Below, piece by piece: positions 41,429 through 61,013 of a DNA stretch of 64,000 bases. Numbering within the stretch: the first letter of the stretch is position 1; each line of letters opens with the position of its first letter. The position numbers were made by a program, and so were the translations under genes. The DNA lies in contig NZ_JACIEE010000003.1 in the NCBI RefSeq assembly GCF_014196765.1, forward strand, positions 496,001 to 560,000, given 5' to 3'. A model generated the notes under the pieces. It saw nothing but the letters and a program-made list of their open reading frames with translations. It did not search any database and had not been told where the DNA came from. This stretch comes from Mycoplana azooxidifex (GTDB lineage Bacteria; Pseudomonadota; Alphaproteobacteria; Rhizobiales; Rhizobiaceae).

Positions 41429-42229
41429 ATGAATTCAGCAATGATGTCCACCGGCAAGGAAATAGCAGGCAGTCTCATTCATCCCATCGCACTTGATCCT
41501 TCCAATTCGTCTCATGCAAAGGTGTTCGAGGGGGTTCACGTTGCGAGAGAGAGGTCTCTCCTGATCATCGACAATAGAGCACTGGACCGGCAATGCCTTG
41601 CCCAGTGTATTTCCGCGCACAAGATTGACATGGATGTCGTCGCTTTCGGCTCCATGGAGGAGTGGAAGCGCAAGCGCCAGGACTATCCGCCGCTTGCTGC
41701 CATCCTGCTCAACGTAGGCGGTCGCAAGATTGCCGAGCCTTCTGTCTCCGAAGAGATCAAGAAGCTCGCAGCCGAGTTCGAGGCACCGATCATCGTATTG
41801 GCGGATACGGACGATCTTGCCCAGATCATGAGAGCCCTGGAGTGCGGAGCCAAGGGTTACATCCCGTCTTCGGTCAGCATCGATGTCTGCATCGAGGCGA
41901 TCGCCTTGTCGCTTGCGGGAGGCATCTTCGTTCCGGCGAGCAGCGTCTTCGCAATGCGCCAGGTCCTCGAAACCGGCAGTCCGGTTGCCCGTCCCCTGGC
42001 CGGCATGTTTACCGCCCGCCAGGCCGAAGTGGTCGAAGCCCTTCGTCGTGGCAAGGCCAACAAGATCATTGCGTATGAGCTGAACCTGCGCGAGAGCACG
42101 GTGAAGGTTCACATTCGCAATATCATGAAGAAGGTGAAGGCCACCAACAGGACCGAAGTCGCCTACAAGATCAACGATCTCTTCCCGACCGACTTCTCCG
42201 CCGACACTGCAAGCCGGCTGGAACACTGA
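41429..42229 (+). CDS. LuxR-type regulator with degenerate receiver domain
   Basis: 266 residues. The C-terminal LuxR helix-turn-helix (about 195-255) has FTARQAEVVEALRRGKANK and RESTVKVHIRNIMKKVKATN. The receiver-like part (43-160) retains the fold (SLLIIDNRALDRQ, IIVLADTDD, GAKGYIPSSVS), but the phospho-acceptor position is Asn95 (AAILLNVGG), so classical phosphorylation is unlikely. No kinase is nearby. It precedes the priming transferase and chain-length genes and is a second candidate regulator of the glycan locus. It is only distantly related to the regulator at 7034. Confidence 0.87.
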   Translation: MNSAMMSTGKEIAGSLIHPIALDPSNSSHAKVFEGVHVARERSLLIIDNRALDRQCLAQCISAHKIDMDVVAFGSMEEWKRKRQDYPPLAAILLNVGGRKIAEPSVSEEIKKLAAEFEAPIIVLADTDDLAQIMRALECGAKGYIPSSVSIDVCIEAIALSLAGGIFVPASSVFAMRQVLETGSPVARPLAGMFTARQAEVVEALRRGKANKIIAYELNLRESTVKVHIRNIMKKVKATNRTEVAYKINDLFPTDFSADTASRLEH

Positions 42230-44121: not shown

Positions 44122-45672
44122 ATGAGCAGCTTGGACTTGCGGTTCTACCTTTCACTGCTGATCAGGCGGTTGCCGCTTGTGCTGGCGATCGCCGTTTCCT
44201 TTGCGGTGCTGATCGCAGGCGCTGCCTATATGCTGCCGACAAAATTCCGGGCCAGTTCGAAGATCCTCGTCGAATCTCCGCAGATTCCATCCGAGCTCGC
44301 CCGGTCCTCGGTGACGATCGGGCCGGCTGAGCAGGTGCAGATCCTGCAGCAGCAGATTACCACCCGCGACGACCTGCTGGCGCTCGCCGACCGATTGAAC
44401 CTCTATGCGAATGCCGAGGAACCGCCGTTGCCGGAAGACATCGTCGAAGACATGCGCTCACGGATCTCCATCGAGGAGATGCTTGTCGATACGCAGGGTC
44501 GCAACATGAGCGCGGTCATCTTCGACGTCTCCTTCACGTCGGGCGATCCGGTGCTTGCCGCGCGGATGGCGAACGAACTGGCGAACATGATCCTGGCCCG
44601 CAACCAGCGCCAGCGAACAGACCGCGCCGGCAGCACGCTCCAGTTCTTCAACCAGGAGGTCGCCCGTTTGGGCACGCAACTGAGCAAGCTGGAGGCCGAT
44701 ATCCTCAAGTTCAAGACCGAGAACAAGGACACTCTGCCGGAAAGCATCGAATTCCGCCGTACCCAGCAAAGCAACCTGCAGGAACGGCTGGTGTCGCTGG
44801 AGCGGGAGGAATCCGACCTGCGCTCGCGGCGCATCAACCTGATCGCAACCTATACCAATACCGGGCGCATCTCCGATGCATCCCCCCTGACACCGGAACA
44901 GCAGATGCTGGCCGACCTCAATCGCGCGCTCGCCGAACAGCTTGCGATCTTTTCCGAAACGAGCCCGAACATCGCGGCGCTGCGGGGCCGCATCGCGGCA
45001 CTGCAGGCGAAGCTGCTGGCACGGGAGCCGAGGGCGCTTGCCGACAGCAAGACCGATCCGCGGCAGCGGGACGACATGACGTTCGGGCTCGACCTCCAGC
45101 TCTCCGACATCGACCAGAGGCTCGAGGCGATCGCGCGCGAACGGGTCTCGATGTCGCAGAGCATCGACGAACTGACCCGGTCGATCACGGCGACGCCTGC
45201 CAGCGAAACCGTTCTGACCGCGCTGGAGCGCAATCGGGCCAACGTCCAGACGCAATATAACGAGGCGATCGCCCGACGCGCCGAAGCCTCGACGGGCGAA
45301 CAGATCGAAATGCGTTCCGACGGCGGTCGTGTCTCCGTGCTGGAGGCGGCCGTGCCGCCGCTCGAGCCGGTCAACAAGAAGCGCATGAAAATCATGGCGC
45401 TCGGGCCGGTCGCAGGTCTCGCGCTCGGCCTCGGCGTGGCGCTCGCCCTGGAGATGTTGAACAGGACCATTCGCCGGCCGGTGGAACTTGCCAGGCTGCT
45501 GCAGACGCAGCCATTGGCGACCATTCCGGAAATCGCACCGGCACGCAGTGGTTCTTCAGCCAAGCGCAAGCGCGGACTCGCAGCGCTCGTCTCCGCCTGC
45601 TTCATGACGCTTCATTGTTTCACGGTCCCGCTCGACCACCTGTTGCTGCGGCTGTTTTCGGGAGTGGCATGA
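44122..45672 (+). CDS. Polysaccharide co-polymerase (Wzz/GumC-like chain-length protein)
   Basis: 516 residues. Membrane helix 1 at about 15-37 is followed by a Wzz domain (FRASSKILVESPQIPSELAR), a long periplasmic coiled coil (about 165-400) and membrane helix 2 at about 433-455 in the proline-containing LGPVAGLALGLGVALALE. The C-terminal tail carries a third hydrophobic segment (AALVSACFMTLHCF). There is no kinase domain; that part is a separate gene downstream. It would control chain length of the exopolysaccharide with Wzy and the export protein. Confidence 0.9.
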   Translation: MSSLDLRFYLSLLIRRLPLVLAIAVSFAVLIAGAAYMLPTKFRASSKILVESPQIPSELARSSVTIGPAEQVQILQQQITTRDDLLALADRLNLYANAEEPPLPEDIVEDMRSRISIEEMLVDTQGRNMSAVIFDVSFTSGDPVLAARMANELANMILARNQRQRTDRAGSTLQFFNQEVARLGTQLSKLEADILKFKTENKDTLPESIEFRRTQQSNLQERLVSLEREESDLRSRRINLIATYTNTGRISDASPLTPEQQMLADLNRALAEQLAIFSETSPNIAALRGRIAALQAKLLAREPRALADSKTDPRQRDDMTFGLDLQLSDIDQRLEAIARERVSMSQSIDELTRSITATPASETVLTALERNRANVQTQYNEAIARRAEASTGEQIEMRSDGGRVSVLEAAVPPLEPVNKKRMKIMALGPVAGLALGLGVALALEMLNRTIRRPVELARLLQTQPLATIPEIAPARSGSSAKRKRGLAALVSACFMTLHCFTVPLDHLLLRLFSGVA

Positions 45673-45731
45673 GAATGCGGTCCAGCCTTGCCATCAATCG
45701 CGACCAGACCTTCGTCATCGGGAAATAGGCC

Positions 45732-46523
45732 ATGGAGCAGATACCCGCCCCCCTTCAGGAAGCCATGCGGTTTCGCAGCACCGACCGATTGGCCGAGCAG
45801 ACCGTGCAGGCCTGCGCCCGCTTCGAGCAGGAGATGGTCTGGGAGAGCCTTCCCGTCCTGACGGTGAACCCGCAGATCGCCGAGCGCAGCCGTATCGTGA
45901 CGTTCGCACGATCGGACCCGGCCCATGTCGCCTTCGACATGCTGCGCACCCGGCTGCTGCAGACATTGCGCCAGAACGGCTGGACCTCCGTCGCGATCAC
46001 CTCGCCGACGCCGTCCTGCGGAAAGTCGCTGGTGGCGCTCAACCTGGCCTTCTGCCTTGCCAATCAGAAGGACTGCAACACGGTGCTGATGGACCTGGAC
46101 CTGAAGCAGCCGCAGATCGGCCAGATGCTGGGGGCAAGGAACAACGCTTCCATGGAAGACCTCCTCGGCGGCCGCTGCGAACTGCGCAGCGTGATGCAGC
46201 GCTACGGGGAAAATCTTGCGATCGGCATGAACAGCCGCCCGGTCAAATACTCGGCCGAGCTACTGCAGAGCATGGATGCCGCCAAGGCGCTCAGGGACAT
46301 GCGAAAGCGGCTGAACCCGCACGTGATCCTGTACGACCTGCCGCCGATGCTCTCGCGCGACGACGTGACCGCATTCCTGCCGAACGTCGATTGCGCCATC
46401 CTCGTGGTCGGGGCAGAGAAGAGCACCATCGAGGAAGTCGATGCCTGCGAACGCGACCTGGCCGAACGATCGAACGTCGCCGGCGTGGTGCTGAACAGGT
46501 GCCGGTACGGCCCGGGCTACTGA
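45732..46523 (+). CDS. CpsD/BY-kinase-like ATPase of polysaccharide export
   Basis: 263 residues. MinD/BY-kinase fold: the P-loop is SPTPSCGKSL (usual form PGEGKS/T), Walker A' is VLMDLDLKQPQIG and Walker B is VILYDLPPM. The gene follows the chain-length protein by 59 bases, so the pair is a split Wzc. The C-terminus has only two tyrosines (RYGPGY) instead of a Tyr cluster, so regulation by multi-site autophosphorylation would be limited. Confidence 0.88.
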   Translation: MEQIPAPLQEAMRFRSTDRLAEQTVQACARFEQEMVWESLPVLTVNPQIAERSRIVTFARSDPAHVAFDMLRTRLLQTLRQNGWTSVAITSPTPSCGKSLVALNLAFCLANQKDCNTVLMDLDLKQPQIGQMLGARNNASMEDLLGGRCELRSVMQRYGENLAIGMNSRPVKYSAELLQSMDAAKALRDMRKRLNPHVILYDLPPMLSRDDVTAFLPNVDCAILVVGAEKSTIEEVDACERDLAERSNVAGVVLNRCRYGPGY

Positions 46524-47219: not shown

Positions 47220-48674
47220 GTGACAAGCACAATTCGCGATGTAACCAAGGCCGGAGTCCGGGCTGAGACAACTCACGTCGACCTCATCGGCAATCCCATC
47301 AACGAAAATGGCCAGGCTGTAGCTCTGTCGCTTGATAAGTTGCTCGATCTTCTGTCGAGCAGCACCGATGATCTGGGTGCCGATGCCTACAACGAGCGCG
47401 TCAGCAAGATGATCGACGATTTCGGCAAGAAGGCAGCCGACCACAAGGGTGGCTGGGGTGACTTCTCGTTCGCTGACAAGTCGGGCACGACCGCCACAAA
47501 GGCAGACCTCCAGTCATCGACCGAGCTGTCCTCCGTCAAGACCGCCGGCGTCACCGACGCCGTCGCTGAAACACAGTCGACTTCGGCTCCTGCCGACACC
47601 ACGGCTGTCCGCAGTGTCGAAGCCGCAGCTGCCGCTCCGGCCGCTGCCGCCGCAGCCTCGTCCGGCTTCCCGGATGCCTCGACGAGCGGCGTTCCGGCCG
47701 GAACCGCGCTCAAGACCTATACCGGCCCGATGACCATCACCAAGGCCGGCACGGTGATCGAGAACGCGATCATCAACGGCTCGCTGCGCATCACCGCCGA
47801 CAACGTCGTGATCAAGAACAGCGTCATCAAGTACAGCGGCACCTGGGGCATCGACGCCGAAGGCGCCAAGAACGTCACCATCCAGAACAACGACATCACC
47901 GGTCCGGGCTATTCCGGCATCGCCAATGCCGCCATCCTCGGCAGCGGCAACTTCAGCGGCAACGACATCTCCAAGTCGGAGAACGGCATCGTCCTGCAGG
48001 GCGGCGCCAGCACGGTGAAGGGCAACTACATCCACGACCTCGAGGCGGCCGGCTCCGACCCGCACTATGACGGCATCTCGGTGCAGGGCGGTCAGAACGG
48101 CGTGCTGATCGAAGGCAACACTGTCATCGGCCGTGATACCTCCGACGTCTTCATCAAGAACGACTTCGGCCCGATCGCCAACGTCAAGGTGACCGGCAAC
48201 CTGCTGCTCGGCGACAGTGGCTATCCGGTCTATGTCGACGGCCGCGCCAATGGTGGGCCGATCACCGGCGTGACGATCAGCAACAACCACATCGAGAAGG
48301 GCGGCTACGGCTACTACAGCATCGACAACTCCAGCCCGGTTCTCTCCGGCAATGTCGAATATCCGCGCAACGGTGCACCCGAACCGGGTGACGGGACCGT
48401 CTCCCCGACGCCGGAACCGACGCCAACCCCCACCCCGGAGCCGACGCCCGAGCCTACGCCGACCCCCGAGCCCACCCCGACGCCGACGCCCACACCGACC
48501 CCGGGTGACAAGGTGATCGACGGCACGAGCGGAAACGACAACCTCGTCGGCAGTTCCGGCAAGGATACCATCAATGGCAAGGCTGGTAACGACACCCTCG
48601 ACGGCGGTGCCGGTAACGACACGCTCAATGGGGGAGCCGGCAAGGACACCATGAAGGGTGGCGCAGGTGCGGAC
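46794..48674 (+). repeat. Inverted long repeat, copy 2 (beta-helix gene plus upstream region)
   Basis: The partner of 21478-23288. The two face each other's backs across about 23.5 kb. The core coding part is near-identical, including synonymous positions where I compared it, while the promoter region and the linker after the beta-helix differ. Edges are estimated by eye. Confidence 0.85.
47035..47053. promoter_or_regulatory. Conserved inverted repeat GTGGC-N9-GCCAC, copy 2
   Basis: The counterpart of the element at 23029-23047, about 167 bases before the GTG start. Its conservation against a diverged background supports a regulatory role. Confidence 0.5.
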
Positions 48675-49004
48675 GTCTTCACCTTCAAGGCCGCCTCGGA
48701 AACGGGCTCCGGCTCGAACCGCGACGTGATCACCGACTTCCAGAAGGGTCAGGACAAGATCGACCTGTCTGTCATCGACGCAAACGGTTCGGCATCCGGC
48801 AACGGCACGTTCCACTTCATCGCCGCAGACAATGCCGTGTTCGATCGCGCCAAGGGCGCGCTGGCCTGGCACCTCGAAGACAAGTCCGGAACCGCGAGGG
48901 ACGTGACCGTCATCCAGGCCGACACGAACGGCGATGGCGTCCATGACTTCGAACTCCAGCTGCAGGGGCTCGTCAAGCTCGCCGCAAGCGATTTCATCCT
49001 CTAA
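47220..49004 (+). CDS. Secreted parallel beta-helix protein with RTX repeats (copy 2)
   Basis: 594 residues starting with GTG behind GGGGAGAAAGG. The N-terminal region and beta-helix are almost the same as in the protein at 20646-22865. The linker after the beta-helix is expanded to about 35 Pro/Thr/Glu residues (PTPEPTPTP repeats). A single block of RTX nonapeptides follows, then a C-terminus of the serralysin/M10 type (GADVFTFKAASETG, VITDFQKGQDKIDLS) ending SDFIL, a typical type I secretion signal. It likely leaves the cell through a type I exporter, perhaps the one encoded at 54305-58152. A polysaccharide-modifying role is inferred from fold and neighbourhood. Confidence 0.9.
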   Translation: MTSTIRDVTKAGVRAETTHVDLIGNPINENGQAVALSLDKLLDLLSSSTDDLGADAYNERVSKMIDDFGKKAADHKGGWGDFSFADKSGTTATKADLQSSTELSSVKTAGVTDAVAETQSTSAPADTTAVRSVEAAAAAPAAAAAASSGFPDASTSGVPAGTALKTYTGPMTITKAGTVIENAIINGSLRITADNVVIKNSVIKYSGTWGIDAEGAKNVTIQNNDITGPGYSGIANAAILGSGNFSGNDISKSENGIVLQGGASTVKGNYIHDLEAAGSDPHYDGISVQGGQNGVLIEGNTVIGRDTSDVFIKNDFGPIANVKVTGNLLLGDSGYPVYVDGRANGGPITGVTISNNHIEKGGYGYYSIDNSSPVLSGNVEYPRNGAPEPGDGTVSPTPEPTPTPTPEPTPEPTPTPEPTPTPTPTPTPGDKVIDGTSGNDNLVGSSGKDTINGKAGNDTLDGGAGNDTLNGGAGKDTMKGGAGADVFTFKAASETGSGSNRDVITDFQKGQDKIDLSVIDANGSASGNGTFHFIAADNAVFDRAKGALAWHLEDKSGTARDVTVIQADTNGDGVHDFELQLQGLVKLAASDFIL

Positions 49005-49227: not shown

Positions 49228-49710
49228 CTACCTGGGAAAACCGTACTTGTCGGTGATATCCCACAGCGTGCGATTGATGGCGACCAGCGAGGCGATGCAC
49301 TCCCTTATCCGCACGACTTCCTGGTCGTCGAGCGCTTCCACCTTCCCGTATTTGACCTCGTCCTTGCTATCGAAAATGCGCATGAGCTGCGTCAGACCCT
49401 GGCCGCTGTCAGGATCGAAGGAGTAGATGCAATGATTGTACTTGTTGCGCAGCTTCGCCTGCTCGCTGAGCCGCCTCGTCGCCTCGAGCACGTCGTTGCG
49501 GCACTCGGCCGGCGTCTTCTGCATCTTCGTCAGCCGCTCGACGAGATCGACCCGCGCGCGCGTCGTATTCAAGGTGAGAAATATGACGATGGCCGTTTCC
49601 TTGTCCACCTTGGCAAGGCCGGCAATCATGTGGATCAGCAGGCTTTCGGTGTTGGTCCAGGTGTAGTTGAGCTGCCCCACCAGCAGCAGTATGTCCTGCA
49701 ACTTCGGCAT
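49228..49710 (-). CDS. Small all-helical protein with a HEPN-like RNxxxH motif
   Basis: 160 residues from the ATG at 49710 (MPKLQDILLLVGQLNYTW). I do not recognise a named family. It is predicted all-helical, and LRNKYNHCIY (Arg88-Asn89-x3-His93) fits the RNxxxH motif of HEPN-domain RNases. There is no adjacent MNT nucleotidyltransferase or antitoxin gene. It lies between the second beta-helix gene (convergent) and the secretion island (divergent). Similar stand-alone HEPN-like proteins may bind rather than cut RNA. Confidence 0.65.
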   Translation of the reverse strand: MPKLQDILLLVGQLNYTWTNTESLLIHMIAGLAKVDKETAIVIFLTLNTTRARVDLVERLTKMQKTPAECRNDVLEATRRLSEQAKLRNKYNHCIYSFDPDSGQGLTQLMRIFDSKDEVKYGKVEALDDQEVVRIRECIASLVAINRTLWDITDKYGFPR

Positions 49711-50365
49711 GCGATGTCTCCAAACCCCGCGCATTTTTCCGATCGGCCCTCGAAGTCCTTGAATCGACGCTGCCGGATTTCCGTCAATTCCGCAGAAACA
49801 TACTCCTGCCGAATGCTAAACAAGTAAAGAATTCATATGCATCACTCGTCACGACAACGTCGTATAGGTTGCCACATGAAACAACAATATCTACAGGTTG
49901 AGAAATAAGTAATACTAAACTCGCGAACAACTATACATTGATACTACGCGAACTGAGTACGCTTATGTGCGCTGACGTGCACCAAAGGTGGTAACCCTTT
50001 GCCGGCTTAATACACATAGTCGCACAAACACCGGCCTCCTAGCTCGAACGGCCAACTTATTAAGTGCGCAAGTTGGCGCAACAATCACAACCTGGCTTGG
50101 GTCAGGTCGACGAAACGCAACGCGTTCGGCGGGTCTGCAAGCGGAAACGGCCAAGGCCCCTTAAGTGGCCTTCGTCCACCGCACCCTGAGTTCAGAAGGG
50201 AGGCATACAATCCAACAACAGGATTGAAGCAACCGGTGAACGCCGAAACCCGGCGTCCGGGCACAGGCCAGTTGACAGCACTCATGTTCAACCCCCGCTC
50301 GGTCAAGACCCTATGAAGATGAATGGCGGTCAAGCCGTAGCGGCCCAGCAACAGAGGGTATAGCT
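49711..50365. promoter_or_regulatory. 655-base region upstream of the secretion island
   Basis: 49800-50050 is AT-rich, then GC rises. A hairpin AAGGCC-N8-GGCCTT lies at 50153-50172, in what may be a long leader of the low-complexity protein gene. A ribosome site AGAGGG lies at about 50354. I see no supported small ORF. Confidence 0.4.
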
Positions 50366-52087
50366 ATGTCTAGCAAGAGCCGGAACAACAACAACTGGGA
50401 CTACGTCGATCCTTCGCAGGAACAGGAACAACAGCAGCAACAGCAGCAGCAGGAACAACAACAGCAGCAGCAGGAACAGGCCACCACCCAGGACCAGACC
50501 CAGACGAGCGACTCGACCAACGAGAACAGCAACGACAACGGGAATGGCAACGGTAACGGTAACGGCAACCTGAACCTCAATGGCAACGGCAACCTGAACC
50601 TAAACGGCAACGCCAACCTCAACAAGAACATCAACGAAAGCAAGACGACCGTCGACGTGGACGTCAACGTGGATGTCGCAGCGGCATCGGGAAAGAGCCA
50701 TCGGCCTGACGACAACGATTTCGCCGACATCGACATGAAGGGCCACAACTCGATCGACGGGATGTTCAACATCAAGTTCGACGATATGCTGAACGGCGCC
50801 CTGACCGGTGCCGGCAATGACGTTGCGAACGTCTTCAACCAGGTCGCCAATCTCCAGGACAACGACAAACTCGACAACGCCCAGGTCACGAACAACGGCC
50901 CGGTAAACTTCAACCTGACCGCTGAAGGCGGCAAGGCCGAAGCCGAGGAAGGCATCTCTGCCGGCGGCACCGGCGGCGACGGCGGCGACGAAGCCTATGC
51001 GGACGGCGGCGACGGCGGTTACGGCGGCGGTGCCCTGGGTGGCTTCGCTGCGGGCGGCAAAGGCAAGGCCGATGCCACAAGCGGCGACGCTGACGGCGGC
51101 AAGGGCGAAGGCGGCAACGCTGACGGCGGCAAGGGCGACGGCGGCGACGCCACAAGCGGCTACGCTGACGGCGGCAAAGGCGACGGCGGCAAAGGCGGTG
51201 ACGGTGGCGCAGGCCTCGGCCTCGGCCTCGGTCTCGGCCTCGGCCTCGGCGCCGGGCTGGCATTTGCCGGCGACGGTGAAGAAGGCGGCAACAACAAGGC
51301 CGGCGATGGCGACAAAGGCGGCGACGGCGGCGATGCCGACGGCGGCGATGCCGGTGACGGCGGCGAAGGCGCATCCTCGACGGCAGGTGACGGCGGTACC
51401 GCAGTCGGCGTTGCCCTCGGCCTGATCGACCCTGTCTTCGTAGATAGCAACGGCGGCGACGTCGACAACGCCAGCAATGGCGGTGGCGGCGGTGCCGGTG
51501 GTGCAGGCGGCGGTGCCGGAGCAGGCGGCGCAGGCGGTGGCGGCGGGTCCGCGACCGATGCGGGCGACGGCGGCGATGGCGGCGGCGCGCTCGGCGCGGG
51601 CGTCGGCATTGGTTACGGCGCCGGTAACGGTGCGGGTACCGGTGGTGACGGCGCAGCCGGCGGATACGGTGTCGGCGGAGCTGCCGCGAGCGGCGACGCA
51701 ACCGGCGGAGCAGGCACCGGCGGCGGTGCATGGGCCGGAGACGGCACGGGTGGCCACGCACTCAGCGGTGCATGGGCTACGGGCACCGGCGGCGACGGCT
51801 ACGGCGGCTGGGCCTATGGCGGTGCCGGCGGAGCCGGTGGCGCTGGCGGAACGGCAACCAATGGCGATGGCGGCGCCGGTGGCGCCGGCGGCACCTGGGG
51901 CTCCGGCAACGGCGATGACGGCTACGTCACCGGAACGAGTTCGGCCTCGGCCGATGCAGCGATCAGCATCAGCGCCTTCAACCAGGAAATCGTCATGGGT
52001 GCAAACCTGCAGCAGAACGCGGTCGACATGACCGTGGTCGGCGGCAACCTCAGCAACACCGTCATCGGCGAAGACGACGACGCATGA
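50366..52087 (+). CDS. Low-complexity Gln/Asn/Gly-rich protein, putative secreted matrix protein
   Basis: 573 residues, family not recognised. Residues 19-37 are almost pure Gln/Glu. About 55-92 are GN and NLNLNGN repeats, reminiscent of amyloid-prone or beta-roll sequences. About 93-190 are ordinary sequence (DNDFADIDMKGHNSIDGMFN, VFNQVANLQDNDKLDNAQV). About 190-530 are Gly/Ala/Asp-rich, including GLGLGLGLGLGLGAGLAFAG. The last 40 residues return to a structured motif (AFNQEIVMGANLQQNAVDMT, VVGGNLSNTVIGEDDDA) that matches the repeat unit of the protein encoded next. There is no signal peptide. First gene of the type I island, so probably its cargo or matrix partner. Confidence 0.75.
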   Translation: MSSKSRNNNNWDYVDPSQEQEQQQQQQQQEQQQQQQEQATTQDQTQTSDSTNENSNDNGNGNGNGNGNLNLNGNGNLNLNGNANLNKNINESKTTVDVDVNVDVAAASGKSHRPDDNDFADIDMKGHNSIDGMFNIKFDDMLNGALTGAGNDVANVFNQVANLQDNDKLDNAQVTNNGPVNFNLTAEGGKAEAEEGISAGGTGGDGGDEAYADGGDGGYGGGALGGFAAGGKGKADATSGDADGGKGEGGNADGGKGDGGDATSGYADGGKGDGGKGGDGGAGLGLGLGLGLGLGAGLAFAGDGEEGGNNKAGDGDKGGDGGDADGGDAGDGGEGASSTAGDGGTAVGVALGLIDPVFVDSNGGDVDNASNGGGGGAGGAGGGAGAGGAGGGGGSATDAGDGGDGGGALGAGVGIGYGAGNGAGTGGDGAAGGYGVGGAAASGDATGGAGTGGGAWAGDGTGGHALSGAWATGTGGDGYGGWAYGGAGGAGGAGGTATNGDGGAGGAGGTWGSGNGDDGYVTGTSSASADAAISISAFNQEIVMGANLQQNAVDMTVVGGNLSNTVIGEDDDA

Positions 52088-52276
52088 CGTCACGAGGTGG
52101 TGGTTTCGCTCCATCGAGCGAGACCACCCGCGTTCGAACTGCGCAGCCGTCGCTGCGCAGTTCACTTCGGGTAGAGCACTTTCCTGGTCGCACGGTTGGA
52201 GCGCTCCCTAGCCGCTCAACCGGACCGATCTCACAGCATCCAGCAAGTTGCCAGCGTCTGGGGGGAGTATCGCGTC

Positions 52277-54292
52277 ATGATCACCATGGACAAGATCAAC
52301 GAGGAGATCGCCCACTTCATCGGCATGCTTCAGATGAGTGCCGAACAAGCCCTTGTCAGGCACACCTATGAGGAGTTCGACGCGCTCAAGCCGGTCGAGC
52401 CGGATCCCGATGCGCCGGCGCCCGGCAATTTGCCGTTTGCAGCGCCCTACGAGTTCATCGGCTTCGATCCCGGCGTCCCGTACCGCTCTCCCCCTCCGGG
52501 TCCGATGGACGGCGACCCGCACCGCTTCCCCAACATGCTTCCGCCCCCGCCACCGCTCGTGCCCGACTTTCCGGAGTTCTCCGTGACACCGATGGTCAGA
52601 ATACAGGACGCAGTTGCATCGGGCGCCGCTACAGCCGGCCCGCCGGAACTCGAACCGCCGGGCTCCGTCGTCGCCTACATCAACCAGGCGATCGGCCTTT
52701 CCGACAACGATGTCTTCAGTGTCGGCGGGCATGGCCTTTCCTTCACACCCGGGGAAGTGAGCGCCGACGAATTGCTCGATGCGGCCGAAGCGGCCTATTC
52801 CCTGTCGCCGATCGGCGGGCTGGAGCGTCCGGGATCGAGCGTTGAGATGATCGAGACCGTAAATGATATCGCCGCCCGGCTGGACGGGTTCGCCCCCGGC
52901 AACGGCAGCGAATTCCAGGTCTTCGTGCAACAGGGGCAGGGCATCAGCGGCATCTTCGTCAACGGCGAACTGGTGGACGAAGTGCCGAAGCTCACGGACT
53001 ATCACGAATTCGAGAAAGAGGACGAGCCGGACGGGACCGGAGAAGTCGTTTCGACTGGCAATGCAACCTTCGGCGAGGATGGATCGATCCTGGTCGAGGC
53101 TTCCGTGACGCTGACCGCCGGCGACAACACGCTGGTCAACGAGGCCATCCTGAAGAACCTCTGGACCGCCGGCACCGTGACCGCGGTCGTCGGCAACCAC
53201 ATCGAACTCAATGCGATCATCCAGACGAATGCGATCTGGGATGCAGACAAGATCGGAACCGGCGTCTGCGACTGGACGAGCGACGCCGCCGTCAACGAGG
53301 TGCTCAACATCGCCTCTTTTAACCGAACGGACCTTTCTGCGGACGACGACAAGGCAGATGCAACGGAAGGTGAATTTCCCGATTTCTGGGCCGTGACGAA
53401 GATCGAGGGCGACCTGTTGATGGTCAACTGGCTCGAACAGTTTATCTTCAAGACCGACAACGACGTCGGAATCCTGTCGTCGACCGGCGTCACGACGAGC
53501 GTGATCAGCGGCGACAACACGGGCGTCAACCAGACCTCCATCTTCGACCTCGGCTTCTCCTACGACCTCATCGTCGTCGGCGGCTCGATCTATGACGCCA
53601 GCATCATCCAGCAAATCAACGTCCTTTTCGACAACGACCTGCTCGGCGGCGTACAGGGTTTCGAGACGAAGGGGACCGGCTCGGCCTCCACATCGGACAA
53701 CCTGCTGTGGAACGAGGCGGTGATCAACAACATCGGCGGCGCGGACCGCTTCGCGGCCCTGCCCGATGCCTACCGGGAGACCGCGGAAGACCTTGCAGAC
53801 GGCAAGAACACGATTTCCAAGGACGTCCTGAGCGACGAGGCCTTTGCCGGGCTGAAGGGCCTGAACGTGCTCTACATCGAGGGAGACATCATCAACCTGC
53901 AGTACATCAAGCAGACCAGCGTGCTCGGGGATTGCGACCAGGTCGCACTGGCGATGGACCAGCTCAAACCTCATCTCGACACCGACTGGTCCATCTCGAC
54001 CGGCGGCAACGCCCTGATCAACAACGCCGCGATCGTCAACCTGGATTCCTTCGGCAAGACCTATGTCGGCGGAGAGAAATATTCCCAGGAGACACTCATC
54101 CAGGCCGAGTTGATCTCATGCGAACCCGATCGCCTCGGCGCTCAGGATCCGAACATGCTGGTCAGCGAAGCAATCGCATTCCTCGACGACCCGATGGCCG
54201 GGGCCGACCAGCAGCCGGGGCATGGCGTCTACATTCCGTCCGCCAACGACGGACCAACGGACGACGGGCTGCAACACGTACTCGGTCATTGA
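52277..54292 (+). CDS. Repeat protein of the type I secretion island
   Basis: 671 residues from the ATG at 52277, with GGGGGGAG upstream; a TTG at 52196 would add unrelated sequence. No signal peptide. A Pro-rich N-terminal third is followed, from about residue 280, by five or six copies of a two-part unit: a GDNxLxNEAxI half (residues 282, 335, 412, 473, 576, 623) and a V-x-G-G-x-I-x5-I-x-Q-x-N-x-L-x-D-x-D half (near 304, 375, 433, 533, 596). No known domain is recognised. It is 12 bases from the ABC exporter gene and translationally close, so it is likely a substrate or assembly factor. Confidence 0.75.
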   Translation: MITMDKINEEIAHFIGMLQMSAEQALVRHTYEEFDALKPVEPDPDAPAPGNLPFAAPYEFIGFDPGVPYRSPPPGPMDGDPHRFPNMLPPPPPLVPDFPEFSVTPMVRIQDAVASGAATAGPPELEPPGSVVAYINQAIGLSDNDVFSVGGHGLSFTPGEVSADELLDAAEAAYSLSPIGGLERPGSSVEMIETVNDIAARLDGFAPGNGSEFQVFVQQGQGISGIFVNGELVDEVPKLTDYHEFEKEDEPDGTGEVVSTGNATFGEDGSILVEASVTLTAGDNTLVNEAILKNLWTAGTVTAVVGNHIELNAIIQTNAIWDADKIGTGVCDWTSDAAVNEVLNIASFNRTDLSADDDKADATEGEFPDFWAVTKIEGDLLMVNWLEQFIFKTDNDVGILSSTGVTTSVISGDNTGVNQTSIFDLGFSYDLIVVGGSIYDASIIQQINVLFDNDLLGGVQGFETKGTGSASTSDNLLWNEAVINNIGGADRFAALPDAYRETAEDLADGKNTISKDVLSDEAFAGLKGLNVLYIEGDIINLQYIKQTSVLGDCDQVALAMDQLKPHLDTDWSISTGGNALINNAAIVNLDSFGKTYVGGEKYSQETLIQAELISCEPDRLGAQDPNMLVSEAIAFLDDPMAGADQQPGHGVYIPSANDGPTDDGLQHVLGH

Positions 54293-54304
54293 GGGGACGA
54301 GGGG

Positions 54305-56800
54305 ATGTCTGACAACCGCAAACGGGTTGCCGATGGCAATGACGAGCATCGTGTGCCCTCGGAAGGCGTTCAGCCGGCGACGTACGACCAGGCCTATGCT
54401 CGGTTTCAGAATGCCGTGCAGCAGTGCCAGGCGGCTGCGGTCGAGGGGCCGGATTCGGCCGTCGCCATGACGTCTGCGCATCGTGCAAAATTCGGTCCGC
54501 CCAACAGACCGGGTCCCAGAATCGTCTCGGCGGAGAGCGAACAGGCGGCAGGTCCGCCCCGTGTCGCAGCCGCCCTGCCCGCGCCGTCTCAAGACGTGCG
54601 GCGGCAGGATTCGCAATCCGCTGCCAGGCCGGAGAGCCCCGAGCGGACGCCGGGAATGGGCCCGCGGGGCGTGCCGCAGCCGGAGAAGGACGTGCGCCCG
54701 ATCAAGGCGGTAGAGTCCCCCGTTGCCCCCCGTCCCGCCGCCCAGCCTGTTGACATCGACCCGCCGCCAACCGTCGTGGAACCGGAAATCCTGACCGTCG
54801 TTCCCCAGCCGGTCACGCGGATTGCGGCAGAGCCGGTCGTGCAGGAGCAGGAAAAGCCGCAGGCCGCACCGATCAGGGAGCGGACGCGCGCGCTCTTCGG
54901 CGAAGCCAAGCCGGAGACGGCCAAGCGCGAACCGACCATTGCCAAGGGCCCAGAGGGTCTCGTGACGATCGAGGGCGACACCGGCCCGATAAAGGCCGGA
55001 GGGGGGGCCAACGACAAAGCCTTCTCCGGGGGTGGAGGGAAGGGGTCCGGCTCGGGCGGCGGCACCTTCCACAAGCGGCTCGGACCCGTCGACTTCTCCG
55101 CGAGCCTCAAGGCGGGGATCGATGCCGTCAGGCTCAACCTGGCTGCAGTCATGGTGTTCACCCTCGCCACCAATGTGCTGGTGCTGGCGGTGCCCATCTA
55201 TCTGTTCCAGATCTCCGACCGCGTCCTGACCAGTCGCTCGCTCGACACGCTGATCATGCTGACCGTCGTCATCGTCGGCGCGATCGTTCTGCAGGCGGTC
55301 TTCGACGCGATCCGGCGCTTCATCCTGATGCGCACGGCCGTGGAGGTCGCGGTCCAGCTGGGCGCACCCATTCTCAGCGCGGCGGCGACCGCATCGCTCA
55401 ACGGAAACGGCCGGGAATACCAGACACTCGGCGACCTCCAGCAGGTGCGCTCCTTCCTCGTATCCAGAACCCTGCTGTCGTTCCTGGACGCGCCGCTTGC
55501 GCCGCTTTTCGTCCTCGCCGTCTTCCTCGTCCATCCTCATCTCGGATCGATCGTGATCGCCACGGCGCTGCTTCTTCTCATCCTCACGCTCGTCAACCAG
55601 CGCCTGACGGCCGCTCCCTTCGCGGAAGCGAACACCTCGCAGGTGAAGGCCAATCTTCATCTGGAATCGATGTCGCGCAATTCGCAGGTGATCAACGCGC
55701 TCGCCATGATACCCGAGGCGGTGCAGATCTGGGGCAGGGACACGGCGACCTCCCTGAAGGCGCAGGTCATCGCGCAGGATCGCAACATCGCCATCAGCGC
55801 GCTCTCGAAGGGCATCCGCCTGCTGGCGCAGGTGGCCATGCTGGGATGGGGCGCCCATCTGGCGATCAACGGCGAAATGACCGGCGGCATGGTGATTGCA
55901 TCGTCGATCATCGCCGGACGCGCGCTGGCGCCGATCGAAGGCGCCATCGAAGGGTGGAGCCAGTACAGCCAGTCGCGTGCCGCCTATAGCCGGATAACCA
56001 GCCTGCTGAAGGCGTCGCCGCTCAATTTCGAACGCCTGAACCTGCCGCGGCCGGAAGGCCGGCTGGATGTGGAGCGGCTGCTCTACGTGCCGGGGGGGAC
56101 CAAGCGCGTCGTGCTGAACGGCATCTCCTTTGCCTTGCAACCGGGCGATTCCCTTGCCGTCATCGGCAACTCGGGGGCCGGGAAGACGACGCTCGGCAAG
56201 ATGCTGGTCGGCTCGATCCTGCCGACATCGGGCAACGTCCGCCTCGACCTCATGGACATCCGGAACTGGGATCAGCGGCAGTTCGGCCAGAACATCGGCT
56301 ATCTCCCGCAGGACGTGCAACTCTTCCCCGGGACGATCAAGGCGAACATCGCCCGCATGCGCCAGGACGCAACCGACGAGCAGGTCTACAAGGCGGCGAT
56401 GCTTGCCGACGTCCACGAGATGATCGCCACGTTGCCGCACGGATACGAGACCACCGTGGCCGCCGACGGATCACCGCTTTCCGGCGGGCAGAAGCAGCGC
56501 ATCGCGCTCGCCCGCGCCTTCTTCGGCGATCCCCGCATGGTCGTGCTGGACGAGCCGAACTCCAACCTCGACAGTGCCGGCGACGCCGCCCTGATGCGCG
56601 CCCTGCAGCACGCCAAGGAGCACAAGATCACCATGATCACGATCACGCAGCGCCCGGCGCTGCTCAGCAATGTCGACAAGGTGCTGCTTTTGGTCAACGG
56701 CACCGTGGCGCTGTTCGGCCTGCGCCAGGACGTCCTGAAGGCACTGGAGACGCGGGGCATCCAGATCGACAACGGCTCGTTTGGCCATCAGTTGCAGTAG
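54305..56800 (+). CDS. Type I secretion ABC transporter (PrtD-like) with long N-terminal extension
   Basis: 831 residues. About 260 residues of Pro/Ala/Glu-rich, probably disordered sequence come first. The exporter membrane domain follows (about 264-560; VFTLATNVLVLAVPIYLFQISDRVL) and then the ATPase domain: Walker A GNSGAGKTT (about 621), signature LSGGQKQR (about 725), Walker B MVVLDEPNSNLD (about 744). The switch position after MITIT is Gln782 (TQRPALL) where PrtD homologues have His. PrtD-type exporters move RTX and related proteins directly to the outside with HlyD and TolC partners. No TolC gene is in the window. Confidence 0.92.
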   Translation: MSDNRKRVADGNDEHRVPSEGVQPATYDQAYARFQNAVQQCQAAAVEGPDSAVAMTSAHRAKFGPPNRPGPRIVSAESEQAAGPPRVAAALPAPSQDVRRQDSQSAARPESPERTPGMGPRGVPQPEKDVRPIKAVESPVAPRPAAQPVDIDPPPTVVEPEILTVVPQPVTRIAAEPVVQEQEKPQAAPIRERTRALFGEAKPETAKREPTIAKGPEGLVTIEGDTGPIKAGGGANDKAFSGGGGKGSGSGGGTFHKRLGPVDFSASLKAGIDAVRLNLAAVMVFTLATNVLVLAVPIYLFQISDRVLTSRSLDTLIMLTVVIVGAIVLQAVFDAIRRFILMRTAVEVAVQLGAPILSAAATASLNGNGREYQTLGDLQQVRSFLVSRTLLSFLDAPLAPLFVLAVFLVHPHLGSIVIATALLLLILTLVNQRLTAAPFAEANTSQVKANLHLESMSRNSQVINALAMIPEAVQIWGRDTATSLKAQVIAQDRNIAISALSKGIRLLAQVAMLGWGAHLAINGEMTGGMVIASSIIAGRALAPIEGAIEGWSQYSQSRAAYSRITSLLKASPLNFERLNLPRPEGRLDVERLLYVPGGTKRVVLNGISFALQPGDSLAVIGNSGAGKTTLGKMLVGSILPTSGNVRLDLMDIRNWDQRQFGQNIGYLPQDVQLFPGTIKANIARMRQDATDEQVYKAAMLADVHEMIATLPHGYETTVAADGSPLSGGQKQRIALARAFFGDPRMVVLDEPNSNLDSAGDAALMRALQHAKEHKITMITITQRPALLSNVDKVLLLVNGTVALFGLRQDVLKALETRGIQIDNGSFGHQLQ

Positions 56801-56811
56801 GAGCGGCGGTG

Positions 56812-58152
56812 ATGTCCGACATAGCGAAAATCCAAGACATCGAGTGGTATTCGGAGGTGCCCCGGTCGATCCGAAAGCAGATGACCGCCGGGTTGATATT
56901 GCTGGGCGCCACGTTCGGAGGCTTCGGGGCCTGGGCCTTCACCGCTCCGCTCGCCGCAGCCGTCATCGCCCAGGGCAGCTTCGTGGCGACCGGCCGCAAC
57001 AAGGTCGTCCAGCACTACGAGGGCGGTATCATAAAGGAGCTGCTCGTCAACGAGGGCGACGAGGTGGTGGAGGGCCAGCCGCTGGTGAGGCTGGACGAGA
57101 CCGCCGCGCTGGCCAAGGAGCGCGAACTGTTCCTGCGCCGCGTCAGGCTGGAGGCGACCGCCGCGCGCCTGACCTCCCTGTTCGAGGGCGACGAGCAGAT
57201 AGACATTACCGGCATTGCGGAGAACCACCGAAACGACCCGGATGTGTCATCGATCCTGATGAACCAGCAGCTGAACTTTAAGGCTCTGGGCCTGAAGCAG
57301 TCGAACGAACTGTCCTTGCTGCGCCAGAACATCAAGGCCCTGGAGTTCCGTAGCGAAGGATACGCCCGCCAACGCATATCCATCATGCGGCAACTGGAAC
57401 TGCTCGGGGAGGAGCAGGAGAGCAAGAAGAAGCTTCTCGCCAAGGCGTTGATCCGCGAGACCGAACTGAAGGCCATTCAACGCGCGATGGCCGACGCGGA
57501 GGGACAGATCGGCAGGCTGGAATCAGAAGTGGCCGAGACGCAGGCGCAGATCGTCAAGGGGCGGCAGGAAATCAGCAGCACCGAACAGTCCTACCGGGAA
57601 GACGCGCTCGACAGGCTGCAGGCGATCCAGGGCGAACTGGACACAGTAAGGGAACAGTCCCGCCAGGCCGAGAACGTCCTGCGCCGCGTCACGATCAACG
57701 CGCCGGTGACGGGGACCGTCGTGCGGACCCACTACCATACGGCAGGCGGCGTCATCGAAAGCGGCAAGGGCATCATGGAAATACTGCCGGCCGGGGTGCC
57801 GCTGATCATCGAGGCGCAGATACCGCGCAACAATATCGACAGCGTGTCCGTCGGGCAGACGGCAACGGTCCGCCTGGTGGCGCTCAACCAGCGCACCACG
57901 CCGGTTCTCCATGGCAACCTGTTCTATATTTCCGCAGACGCGCTGGAGGACAGCAAGCCGGGCATGCCGGCCCACGACGTCTACCTGGCGCGCGTGAACA
58001 TTCCCGCGGAGGAGCTCGCAAAGGTCAAGGGCTTCCACCCGACGCCCGGAATGCCGGCGGAGGTGATGATCCAGACGGAGAAGCGCACCTTCTTCAGCTA
58101 CATCGTCAAGCCGATCACCGACAGCATGTCCAGGGCGTTCACCGAGCGGTGA
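56812..58152 (+). CDS. HlyD-family type I secretion membrane fusion protein
   Basis: 446 residues from the ATG at 56812, with GGAG 8 bases before; a GTG three bases upstream is less likely. One membrane helix lies at about 27-50 (GLILLGATFGGFGAWAF). Half lipoyl domains (VVQHYEGGIIKELLVNEGDEV and RVTINAPVTGTVVRTHYHT) flank a coiled coil of about 130 residues (150-290), followed by a beta-barrel and C-terminal HlyD segment (GMPAEVMIQTEKRTFFSYI). It links the ABC exporter to an outer-membrane TolC channel. It is co-transcribed with the exporter gene. Confidence 0.94.
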   Translation: MSDIAKIQDIEWYSEVPRSIRKQMTAGLILLGATFGGFGAWAFTAPLAAAVIAQGSFVATGRNKVVQHYEGGIIKELLVNEGDEVVEGQPLVRLDETAALAKERELFLRRVRLEATAARLTSLFEGDEQIDITGIAENHRNDPDVSSILMNQQLNFKALGLKQSNELSLLRQNIKALEFRSEGYARQRISIMRQLELLGEEQESKKKLLAKALIRETELKAIQRAMADAEGQIGRLESEVAETQAQIVKGRQEISSTEQSYREDALDRLQAIQGELDTVREQSRQAENVLRRVTINAPVTGTVVRTHYHTAGGVIESGKGIMEILPAGVPLIIEAQIPRNNIDSVSVGQTATVRLVALNQRTTPVLHGNLFYISADALEDSKPGMPAHDVYLARVNIPAEELAKVKGFHPTPGMPAEVMIQTEKRTFFSYIVKPITDSMSRAFTER

Positions 58153-58408: not shown

Positions 58409-59881
58409 CTAACCCCGCACTTCGGCCTCAGGACGCTCCCTTCGGCCCTTCCGCTCGATCGCCGCCGGCGTTCGCGCAGACCTGCGCGCCCGAACGCCCG
58501 GTTGTTCGATCGGGACCCCTTCCCCGGGCTTCGCGTCCAGCATCCAGATGCCGCTTCCCAGCAGGAACAGGAACCATGCATAGTTCGCGGCCCAGATGTG
58601 GACCGTGCAGCCGACGAGCATGAACATCGCCATGCAGATGACATATCCGGAGCGATAGGCGTCGATCTTCTCGTCGACGCTTTTTCTATAGGCAACCCCG
58701 CAGATCGCGACCAGGCAGGCTGCGAAGATCAGGATGACGCCCGGAATGCCGTGTCGCATCGCAATCAGGAGCCAGAAGTTGTCGACGCTGTCTGGCATCC
58801 ACGACGGCCGCGCCCAGTCGCCCATGCCGATGCCGAACAGCGGATGGTTCGCGACCGAGGCGGAGCCGAATTCCCAGATCAGCAGGCGAAACCAGCCGGT
58901 CTGCGGGTCGAAGGTGAAGCGAGATATGTAGAACTGCACAGGGGTCAGGTTGGAGCCGAATTCAACGATCAGATACCCTAGGAAGACGATCCCCCAGAAA
59001 ATCTTCCATCGGTAGCTGAACCGATGCAGCGCCAGATTCCAGCCGATGAACGCCAGTTGCATCACCATACCGGCAATGGGCGCCGACGACATCGACAGAA
59101 AGGCCGTGAAGAAAATGGCGGCCGGCCAGACCCAGCGCGACAGGCCCATTCTTCCGTAACCGAGCACCTGATAGGCCAGCGCGAGAAGGCTCCCGCAGAA
59201 GAGACCGAAGACGATCGAATGTCCGAACGGCCCCTGGACGCGCCAGAATCCCATTCGCGGCTCCATCAGCGTGATCTCGACGGTCGGAAAGACCGTTCCA
59301 AGGACCGTCAACAGCGGCTTCTGGCCGGTCGTCCATTCGTAGAGGGCGAACGGAAGGAGGATCAAGACCAGCCAGCAGGCGAGCCGGACAATATTGCGGA
59401 AGTCTTCTGCCGTCCGGATATAGCAGCGCGCCAGGAAATAGGCCCCCAGGGTCTCGATGTTCAGGATTCCAATCGCCTCGATCCCCGGCCCGATACCGTG
59501 GACGACGGCGAGGCTCAGCGAAGCCCAGAGGCTGAACAGCAGGACGGCGATATCCGCAAAGCGGATTGGCCCTGCCCTGCCGCTGACCCACATGAACAGG
59601 CATGGCAACAAGGTGGCGAGCAGGACGATCCGGTACACCGACAGGTTCATCGGGCCGAGCGGTATGATCCATGGAATGACGAGGCCGACGACGAAGACGA
59701 CAATGGGCCACGGCAGCCGTGCCCTGGTCTTGCGGCTTACCGGGTCTGGCGTGCCTGCGACAGCCCGGGCGGTCGTGGCGCCGGCGACGACGGCAGCCTT
59801 GCCGCGCACACGTCCCCGATACGCGTCAGGCGTGGGCCTGCCGCTGCGGGAAACGTCATCTCTCAACACCGTCGTCAGCAT
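58409..59881 (-). CDS. O-antigen ligase/Wzy-polymerase-like membrane protein
   Basis: 490 residues from the ATG at 59881. About 11 membrane helices after a 50-residue basic N-terminus, with the Wzy_C-type periplasmic loop (FTFDPQTGWFRLLIWEFG, HPLFGIGMGDWARPSW, RHGIPGVILIFAACL). Such proteins polymerise lipid-linked repeat units or ligate them to an acceptor. With Wzx at 13101 and the chain-length protein at 44122, it completes a Wzx/Wzy pathway. The Arg-rich C-terminus is cytosolic. The distinction between ligase and polymerase cannot be made from sequence alone. Confidence 0.88.
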   Translation of the reverse strand: MLTTVLRDDVSRSGRPTPDAYRGRVRGKAAVVAGATTARAVAGTPDPVSRKTRARLPWPIVVFVVGLVIPWIIPLGPMNLSVYRIVLLATLLPCLFMWVSGRAGPIRFADIAVLLFSLWASLSLAVVHGIGPGIEAIGILNIETLGAYFLARCYIRTAEDFRNIVRLACWLVLILLPFALYEWTTGQKPLLTVLGTVFPTVEITLMEPRMGFWRVQGPFGHSIVFGLFCGSLLALAYQVLGYGRMGLSRWVWPAAIFFTAFLSMSSAPIAGMVMQLAFIGWNLALHRFSYRWKIFWGIVFLGYLIVEFGSNLTPVQFYISRFTFDPQTGWFRLLIWEFGSASVANHPLFGIGMGDWARPSWMPDSVDNFWLLIAMRHGIPGVILIFAACLVAICGVAYRKSVDEKIDAYRSGYVICMAMFMLVGCTVHIWAANYAWFLFLLGSGIWMLDAKPGEGVPIEQPGVRARRSARTPAAIERKGRRERPEAEVRG

Positions 59882-59942
59882 GCGTGCTGCCTTTGATGGC
59901 CAGGCCGGTAAGCGGTCCTCGCGATGTCGCGGGGCATGGCGA

Positions 59943-61013
59943 TCATAAGTAGAATCGCGGAACGTGTATGCCGGTGTATCGGGCCCAATGCCAATCGACC
60001 CTGTTGAAGATCTCGCGCTCCGCGAATAGGCGCAATCGCGCGCTTTGGCGGGCAAGGGCGGCCTGCACGGCGCTCCTGTCATGGCGACGCTCGTCGGCCA
60101 CCAGCGCACGGTATCCGGATGTGTCAACGATATCCGGCCACAGCGAAACGGCGAATTCGCGATACTTTGCCGGCGAGACGTCGTTCTCTGCGGGAAAATC
60201 GCAAAGCTTGCGCGCATGTTGGAGCGCCATAATGGCGAGCGAGCGCCTTGCGAGGCCATAGAGCTCGTCCCGGTCCGACAGGTCCGCGCCCTCCTTTTCG
60301 AACGCGGCCTTGAAAGCCTTGTGCCGTCCCTCCAGGTCGAACAATACGCCGGCGTGGATGGTTCGCTGCATGCTGAGCACATGGACGCGGTAGTAGGCCT
60401 GGTCGGCGCCGTGGACGCGGCCGATGTCGGAAATAGCTGCGATTCGCAGCCACATTTCCATGTCGGCGGAATGCGGGAGATCAGCACTGTAGCCGCCGAT
60501 CCGCCTCTGAATATCGGCGCGAACGACCGCCTCCGGGCAGACGACGAAGTTCTTTCCCGATCGACAGATGTGTCGGATCCACTTCCTTCCATTCCAGATC
60601 GAGGTGCTGCTCGACGAGGTGCGCGCCGGCGGAAGGACATCCGTGAAAGAGATCGGTTGCCCGTAGGTCATGCCGACATTCGGATTGGTGTCCATCAGCG
60701 ACGTGGCCCGCGACAGGGCGCCAGGCGTGAGCAGGTCGTCTGCCGAAAGCAGGACGAAGTAGTCGCCACGGATCTGTGCGATGCCCTCGTTGTATGTCGC
60801 GATGTGACCCCTGTTGGTCTCATGGCGAATGACCCGGATGCGCGGGTCACGGCGCATCAGATCGGCGCAGACCCGTGGCGTGTCGTCGGACGAGCAATCG
60901 TCGATGATAAGGACGTCGACGTCGACGCCTTCCTGATCGAGAACGCTCTGGACGCATTGCTCCAGATATCGAGCGTAGTTATAGCAGGGAACGAGGACCT
61001 GAACCGTCGCCAT
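59943..61013 (-). CDS. Family 2 glycosyltransferase
   Basis: 356 residues. GT2 core: VQVLVPCYNYARYLEQCVQS, DVLIIDDCSSDDTPRV, RGHIATYNEGIAQIRGDYFV and LLSADDLLTPGAL (metal-binding Asp pair near residue 90), then PHSADMEMWLRIA. The C-terminal 150 residues are helical. It sits 61 bases upstream of the polymerase-like gene on the same strand, so the two form an operon. Donor and acceptor are unknown. Confidence 0.92.
   Translation of the reverse strand: MATVQVLVPCYNYARYLEQCVQSVLDQEGVDVDVLIIDDCSSDDTPRVCADLMRRDPRIRVIRHETNRGHIATYNEGIAQIRGDYFVLLSADDLLTPGALSRATSLMDTNPNVGMTYGQPISFTDVLPPARTSSSSTSIWNGRKWIRHICRSGKNFVVCPEAVVRADIQRRIGGYSADLPHSADMEMWLRIAAISDIGRVHGADQAYYRVHVLSMQRTIHAGVLFDLEGRHKAFKAAFEKEGADLSDRDELYGLARRSLAIMALQHARKLCDFPAENDVSPAKYREFAVSLWPDIVDTSGYRALVADERRHDRSAVQAALARQSARLRLFAEREIFNRVDWHWARYTGIHVPRFYL

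Follow-up and report, generated by a model that had tools for sequence, protein, structure and literature searches.

The island at positions 50366-58152 of the stretch analyzed here (64,000 nucleotides of the 5.88-Mb genome of Mycoplana azooxidifex, contig NZ_JACIEE010000003.1, positions 496,001 to 560,000; hereafter the window) raises the question of what a PrtD-type type I exporter and its HlyD-family adaptor might deliver out of the cell when the two open reading frames (ORFs) encoded ahead of them, ORF1 and ORF2, resemble no named family. The answer that we propose, at about even chances, is that the locus is a dedicated type I island exporting two partners that would build a cell-surface or extracellular protein matrix. 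The export, the assembly, and the role of a fifth gene, p160, we infer from sequence; the evidence consists of a two-part repeat that ORF1 and ORF2 appear to share at the level of their families, a gene order that recurs in other genomes, and an exporter with a clade of its own.

The initial annotation had placed four co-directional genes at this site, and all four are present there, on the plus strand. ORF1 (50366-52087) encodes an acidic protein of 573 amino acids (aa), rich in glutamine, asparagine, glycine, and aspartate and devoid of cysteine, whose low-complexity region lies between two conserved half-repeats: an internal half-repeat A (QVANLQDNDK, 50840-50869) and a half-repeat B (GANLQQNA, 51998-52021), the latter within a conserved C-terminal module. 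ORF2 (52277-54292; alignment favors this start over a possible longer one, a TTG at 52196) encodes a 671-aa protein with A and B half-repeats, a conserved N-terminal segment (TE.IAHFIG), and a conserved extreme C-terminus. There follow a PrtD-type type I secretion ATP-binding cassette (ABC) exporter of 831 aa with a long variable N-terminal extension (54305-56800) and the HlyD-family periplasmic adaptor (56812-58152, with an earlier GTG start possible at 56809), whose identities, likewise claimed at the outset, are confirmed by TIGR01842 (E 7.5e-213; 708 bits versus a cut-off of 510) and TIGR01843 (E 6.4e-113; 378 bits versus 209), respectively. The claim that ORF1 and ORF2 fall outside known families also held, neither having a Pfam or NCBIfam match at E<=0.1. 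Among 22 aligned ORF1 and 20 aligned ORF2 proteins, the window's included, the Pfam matches were scattered, each in at most three members, and none of the ORF1, ORF2, and p160 families had a convincing one; in those scans, ORF1 and ORF2 matched neither PF00353 (RTX), nor the curlin-repeat family (CsgA/CsgB), nor any sugar-acting domain that we could recognize. The reported absence of RTX nonapeptides was reproduced by a pattern search, in which tandem copies occurred in 0 of 54 ORF1 and 0 of 50 ORF2 relatives, and isolated single RTX-type strings in 15 and 2 of them, respectively. In the libraries searched the ORF1, ORF2, and p160 families carry no family name, and the annotated ORF1 and ORF2 relatives are hypothetical or misnamed proteins, such as a 'type I secretion protein ATPase' (ORF2) or a 'fibrinogen-binding protein' (ORF1).

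In most of the complete ORF1 relatives two modules recur, one internal, centered on 'QVANL.DND', and one C-terminal, centered on 'FNQ.IVMGANLQQNAVDMTVVGGN'. The resemblance of the ORF1 C-terminus to the ORF2 repeat, which the initial annotation had deduced from the two window proteins, does not stand for that pair: 795 of 2000 shuffled versions of ORF2 aligned with the C-terminal 40 residues of ORF1 equally well or better, and we discarded that pairwise alignment as evidence because it lies at chance level. Between the families the resemblance is supported, though with a different register. In hhalign comparisons, the counterpart of the ORF1 C-terminus (GANLQQNAVDMTVVGGN) is the half 'G.N...N.A.I' of the ORF2 repeat, with a best P of 7.5e-5 as compared with 0.46 and 0.54 for reversed controls; an internal stretch of ORF1 (NQVANLQDNDKL) corresponds to the other half, 'Q.N.L.DND', with a best P of 0.0024 as compared with 0.05 and 0.07 for reversed controls. 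The latter half is the one that the initial annotation had quoted; opposite repeat halves had been compared there. Several values limit this result: the second to fourth of the four ORF2-alignment matches of the C-terminal module had P 0.02-0.046, the other two of the three matches of the internal module had P 0.016 and 0.059, and most single repeat matches were weak; moreover, since the ORF2 alignment matched its own reverse at P 8.5e-4, only the C-terminal-module match is clear by itself, the P of 0.0024 for the core not being so.

Two giant ORF1 relatives, of 1610 and 1567 aa, matched the C-terminal module 13 times (one match being weak) and 11 times, respectively; these giants (L101:2691-7523 and L104:2703-7406, the L numbers being our locus labels) consist of 11-13 tandem repeats, spaced by about 134 aa in L101, in place of low-complexity sequence. 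Half-repeat models made from the giants alone (21 repeats from the two proteins) were compared with 57 targets, namely 52 ORF2 relatives and five distant-cassette proteins, and with 1197 reversed or shuffled controls, which shuffles are not independent samples, so that Fisher values were set aside. At domain E<1, the model of the C-terminal half-repeat found 25 targets and 0 controls, and that of the other half-repeat 23 targets and 3 controls; among 609 other ORFs, the only matches under 1 were the ORF2-like proteins of the distant loci L107, L108, and L110. Models from ordinary ORF1 proteins were weaker, the C-termini matching 4 of 52 ORF2 proteins versus 0 of 1092 controls, and the cores 10 of 52 versus 3 of 1092. 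The family-level statistics, and not the window pair alone, thus support a two-part repeat shared by ORF1 and ORF2; of the wider proposal in the initial annotation, the shared module has these statistics behind it, while the co-assembly into an extracellular fiber or matrix is a step that we infer. The same data bear on a neutral explanation, to which we give little credence: an ordinary type I adhesin operon with a fast-evolving low-complexity cargo, in which the repeat would be convergent composition and p160 a hitchhiker. The chance-level similarity of single ORF1 and ORF2 sequences and the one reversed control at P 8.5e-4 speak for such an operon, as does BapA of Paracoccus, a type I-dependent Asp-Ala-repeat biofilm adhesin of a different locus according to the available parts of its description (PMC5588039); the profile matches, however, were nearly absent from the composition-matched shuffles, and p160 tracks ORF2 over 397 genomes, as detailed below.

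The order ORF1-ORF2-PrtD-type exporter-HlyD recurs in Hyphomicrobiales and Rhodobacterales. Of 121 genomes searched with ORF2, whose nearest named relative was that of Rhizobium sp. GN54, 21 held a relative, the own genome being one of them, and the order was kept in all 20 others, three of those 20 ORF1s having been first identified by eye and one locus holding two tandem ORF1 copies. At 58 cassette loci found by ORF2 searches, with the window itself excluded and the counts tallied by hand, the ABC exporter was present in 58, HlyD in 57, p160 in 56, and an ORF1 immediately preceding ORF2 in 53; the presence of ORF2 was not counted as a test because the ORF2 searches had chosen the loci. Co-occurrence with the exporter, for which the initial annotation had proposed to look, was therefore found, and a location of the homologues mainly away from it, named there as a refutation, was not. 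A point on the other side is that 20 of the 58 loci had supplied the models of ORF1, ORF2, and p160 and so match them by construction (five plasmid loci also went into those of p160); upon exclusion of those 20, ORF1 was found in 33 of 38. The five loci without an automatic ORF1 were L079 (a divergent ORF1, seen by eye), L087 (contig end), and L109, L184, and L186 (interrupted frames), and in the two loci without p160 (L085 and L087) that gene was on another contig of the same genome. Left out of the 58 were L113 (a copy of L038), L088 (the companion contig of L087), and the distant L107, L108, and L110, whereas L078 and L082, copies in one strain, and L104 and L105, from one genome, were retained. 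The cassette was also found on plasmids (32 of 72,556 records with ORF2, including those of Ensifer, Sinorhizobium, Shinella, Paracoccus, and Sulfitobacter), and it is accessory, since four of the six other genomes of the own genus carry it.

Two observations on particular loci may be added here. An ORF1-ORF2 fusion in Rhodobacter sp. CZR27 (L186) was considered and rejected: the ORF1 C-terminal module lies in a different frame, so that the annotated protein of 1517 aa apparently arose from a frameshift. The distant cassettes (L107:7241-14043, L108:7821-9904, and L110:5178-6788) encode ORF2-like repeat proteins with a related ABC exporter and HlyD and no p160, and in L107 and L108 one more repeat protein is encoded upstream. 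To judge from these loci, the repeat superfamily extends beyond the island.

The fifth conserved gene of the island, p160, was overlooked in the initial annotation. It lies on the minus strand at 49228-49734 and encodes a 168-aa protein with no Pfam family and an HEPN-like RNxxxH motif. Clustering of the neighboring ORFs placed a protein of about 160 aa in all 28 first-set loci, the window included, and its strand was opposite to that of ORF2 in 46 of the 56 loci holding it. Searched by itself, p160 was found in 36 of 397 genomes drawn from the order, in which set ORF2 was found in 35 (the own genome counted) and both in 32. Its relatives are 29-96% identical to the window copy, the R-N-x3-H being among the most constant features (N and H in all 25 aligned proteins, R in 24 of them, the remaining one having K). 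According to the available parts of the reference description, the HEPN motif is Rx4-6H with a polar residue following the R (PMC3710099), which arrangement p160 shares with that superfamily; p160 differs in lacking Ex3[KR], a motif conserved in many but not all HEPN families (PMC3710099), since E30 is invariant (25 of 25) with no K or R at +4 in the window copy, and no HEPN family was among the Pfam matches of the 25 members. One of three p160 members had a weak Csx1 match in PADLOC (E 0.016). We use 'HEPN-like' as a working label because the remaining HEPN features are absent or weakly matched. In viral contigs, 35 pattern matches included 0 true relatives of p160. Weak cassette-free relatives occur at L191:9314-10039 and L192:8688-9686, with the motifs RADLAHG and RNALAHG, which relatives point to a wider HEPN-like family.

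The exporter itself points toward a dedicated system. In a tree of 83 transporters—a quick one, from which 2 of 85 rows were dropped as too short and in which an adjacency rule labeled three cassette rows 'OTH', all of which tempers the result—the 51 cassette exporters formed one fork with an SH-aLRT of 100, outside of which were 29 other transporters and the three exporters of the distant cassettes, these last being the nearest. The cassette exporter is, judged from this topology, a dedicated one with a clade of its own, and the second PrtD-type exporter of the own genome is only 37% identical to it. Its variable N-terminal extension covers about 270 aa before the PrtD core (54305-55120 in the window), and appears longer in L045, where the first possible start codons were used. 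The exporter and the adaptor are thus clear TIGR01842 and TIGR01843 members like those of other PrtD/HlyD type I systems, from which the cassette differs in a cargo free of RTX repeats and of Pfam or NCBIfam matches and in that extension and separate clade.

Type I substrates are expected to be acidic and poor in cysteine and to bear C-terminal signals. Both families are acidic, with a median isoelectric point of about 4 (54 ORF1 and 50 ORF2 proteins); cysteine is absent from 38 of those ORF1 and 24 of those ORF2 proteins; and recurring tail patterns were seen in 43 and 36 of them, respectively, with an aspartate close to the ORF2 C-terminus invariant in 20 of 20 aligned proteins. These properties, together with the polysaccharide context described below, are the reason why we favor export and matrix assembly. 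The PrtD/HlyD pair, joined by a TolC-type outer-membrane channel encoded elsewhere, would export both proteins in a single step, directed by signals at their C-termini. Once they are outside the cell, the A and B half-repeats would fold as stacking beta-type modules and dock ORF1 to ORF2, the latter serving as a repeat-rich connector or anchor and the former, long, acidic, and of low complexity, as a spacer or matrix protein, so that the matrix might lie within or beside the exopolysaccharide. Control of the system would fall to p160 and a LuxR-type regulator, whose genes often form a tandem pair read in the direction away from ORF1; p160 would probably act either as an HEPN-type RNase or as a regulator that binds RNA or protein and acts on the matrix genes, which are costly.

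The two main rivals of this reading concern the fate of ORF2 and the relationship with the polysaccharide. ORF2 might be an intracellular escort that binds ORF1 via the repeat, keeps it unfolded, and delivers it to the exporter, ORF1 alone being exported; such a role, which we consider rather unlikely, would accord with the position of ORF2 between ORF1 and the exporter (53 of 58 loci), with its conserved N-terminal segment, with the common repeats, which would permit ORF1-ORF2 binding, and with its length, 628-728 aa in 50 proteins and hence far steadier than that of the complete ORF1 relatives, which extend from 183 aa (S. meliloti Ak57) to 1610 aa. ORF2 is nonetheless itself a long, acidic, cysteine-poor repeat protein, in which, as expected of an exported substrate, a variable linker precedes the conserved extreme C-terminus, and the three distant loci again place an ORF2-like repeat protein beside an ABC exporter and HlyD. 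Alternatively, the island might export factors acting on the exopolysaccharide and build no matrix of its own, by analogy with ExpE1/WgeA of Sinorhizobium, a type I-exported protein required for polysaccharide release. Exopolysaccharide genes do flank the island in the window and were present at 6 of the 12 annotated plasmid loci viewed (two of these being copies in one strain; L081 and L152, devoid of annotated features, were excluded); but the other 6 had no polysaccharide genes, and neither RTX repeats nor a sugar-acting domain was recognized in ORF1 or ORF2, and we deem this analogy improbable.

A further group of results weighs against, or limits, the reading as a dedicated matrix island. 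ORF2 was found in just 2 of 385 genomes drawn from the class and in just 9 of 378 drawn from the phylum, the own genome being counted in both instances and one of the nine matches being weak and partial. The association with p160 has exceptions on either side: p160 occurs without ORF2 in 4 of the 397 genomes, namely G365 (where a possible ORF1 remnant lies next to it), G420 (where the contig ends 1.4 kb away), and G408 and G005 (weak outer p160 relatives, with no cassette), and ORF2-like matches occur without p160 in G179, G360, and G338, which are distant cassettes. A pure matrix model, besides, leaves the conserved p160 unexplained; no gene for an outer-membrane channel caught the eye within the cassette, no search aimed at a TolC-type channel having been made; the repeat pattern is the sole basis for the proposed beta-type fold; ORF2 could be the intracellular escort just considered; and 6 of the 12 annotated loci, one of these 6 being sparsely annotated, show no polysaccharide genes.

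In organization, a known parallel to a matrix-building island is the curli system (csgBA/csgD), which comprises paired repeat proteins with Q/N-bearing repeats and a divergently transcribed LuxR-family regulator. The likeness extends to organization only, in the paired repeat proteins, the Q/N-bearing repeats, and the LuxR-family regulator, whereas the cassette has no curlin-repeat Pfam match and its predicted export is of type I and not by Sec/CsgG. The stronger proposal that the island is a type I-secreted counterpart of curli, in which two co-secreted proteins polymerize via a Q/N-laddered beta-type repeat, with a dedicated exporter clade and control by a tandem LuxR regulator and HEPN-type RNase, strikes us as possible but doubtful. 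A link between an HEPN-motif protein and a secretion system would, to our knowledge, be unusual, and p160 would tie such a protein to secretion instead of to defense or toxin-antitoxin modules.

BapA of Paracoccus denitrificans, exported through BapBCD, is described in the available parts of PMC5588039 as a type I-dependent, very acidic low-complexity surface protein required for biofilm, and thus resembles the cargo proposed here in being a product of that kind from an alphaproteobacterium. It is not the same locus: BapA corresponds to Pden_2411-2413 with its neighbor, that locus has its own outer-membrane gene and 891 Asp-Ala repeats, and those parts describe no ORF2 or p160 partner (PMC5588039). 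A P. denitrificans strain (L152) also carries the present cassette, and a single predicted type I system was reported for the P. denitrificans strain studied there (PMC5588039). The SMc04206-04208 region of Sinorhizobium was likewise dismissed as the same locus, the region being linked to iron/FecI in the available parts of its description.

Another comparison is that with the contact-dependent antibacterial Cdz system of Caulobacter, in which, as far as the available parts of PMC5380434 describe it, CdzC (86 aa) and CdzD (84 aa) are glycine-zipper proteins, of which CdzC aggregates in insoluble form on the surface, and CdzI, likewise small, resides in the inner membrane. Two glycine-rich proteins encoded with a type I exporter, and a small divergent gene that would confer immunity, do recall cdzABCD/cdzI, and yet we give almost no weight to a Cdz-like function: the complete ORF1 proteins, of 183-1610 aa, lie far from the glycine-zipper size of about 85 aa (PMC5380434); the glycine-rich part is absent from short ORF1s such as those of L040 and L041; and p160 differs in kind from CdzI, being well conserved (29-96%) with a catalytic-type motif.

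We recognized no description of the cassette in the open-license papers searched, judged mostly by title and abstract start. The cassette is present in rhizobial and Rhodobacterales genomes, including plasmids of Sulfitobacter, Paracoccus, Shinella, and Ensifer, under hypothetical or misnamed annotation, and, should the matrix reading be true, it would represent a hitherto undescribed surface system of plant-associated and marine bacteria, made of two proteins exported by the type I route.

With regard to regulation, a LuxR-type protein (GerE domain) was found near the cassette in 32 of the 58 loci, and in 25 of those 32 its gene and p160 formed a tandem pair, the two overlapping or lying no more than about 100 bases apart; no receiver domain was recognized in the two cassette LuxR-type members scanned. 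In Rhizobium sp. RCAM05350 (L184:8046-9296, minus strand) the regulator and p160 form one 416-aa open frame, which union may be an assembly effect because several frames are broken at that locus. The window has no LuxR-type regulator beside the cassette; the LuxR-type gene at 41429-42229 was considered and is not claimed as the cassette regulator because it has only 18-27% identity to 16 aligned cassette regulators.

The exopolysaccharide context of the window consists of genes for a Wzz/G-rich chain-length protein and a ParA/CbiA-type ATPase (44122-46523, plus strand) on one side, and for a Wzy/O-antigen-ligase-like protein and a GT2 glycosyltransferase (58409-61013, minus strand) on the other, the Wzy/O-antigen-ligase-like match, at 30.9 bits, falling slightly below the Pfam cut-off of 31.7. 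Adjoining the island, at 47220-49004 on the plus strand, a protein with RTX repeats, a right-handed beta-helix, and a Pro/Thr linker is encoded, which lies outside the conserved cassette, as it recurs among 20 relatives only in L046 and, in part, in L028; it is possibly a further type I substrate, exported either via the cassette or by the second PrtD-type exporter.

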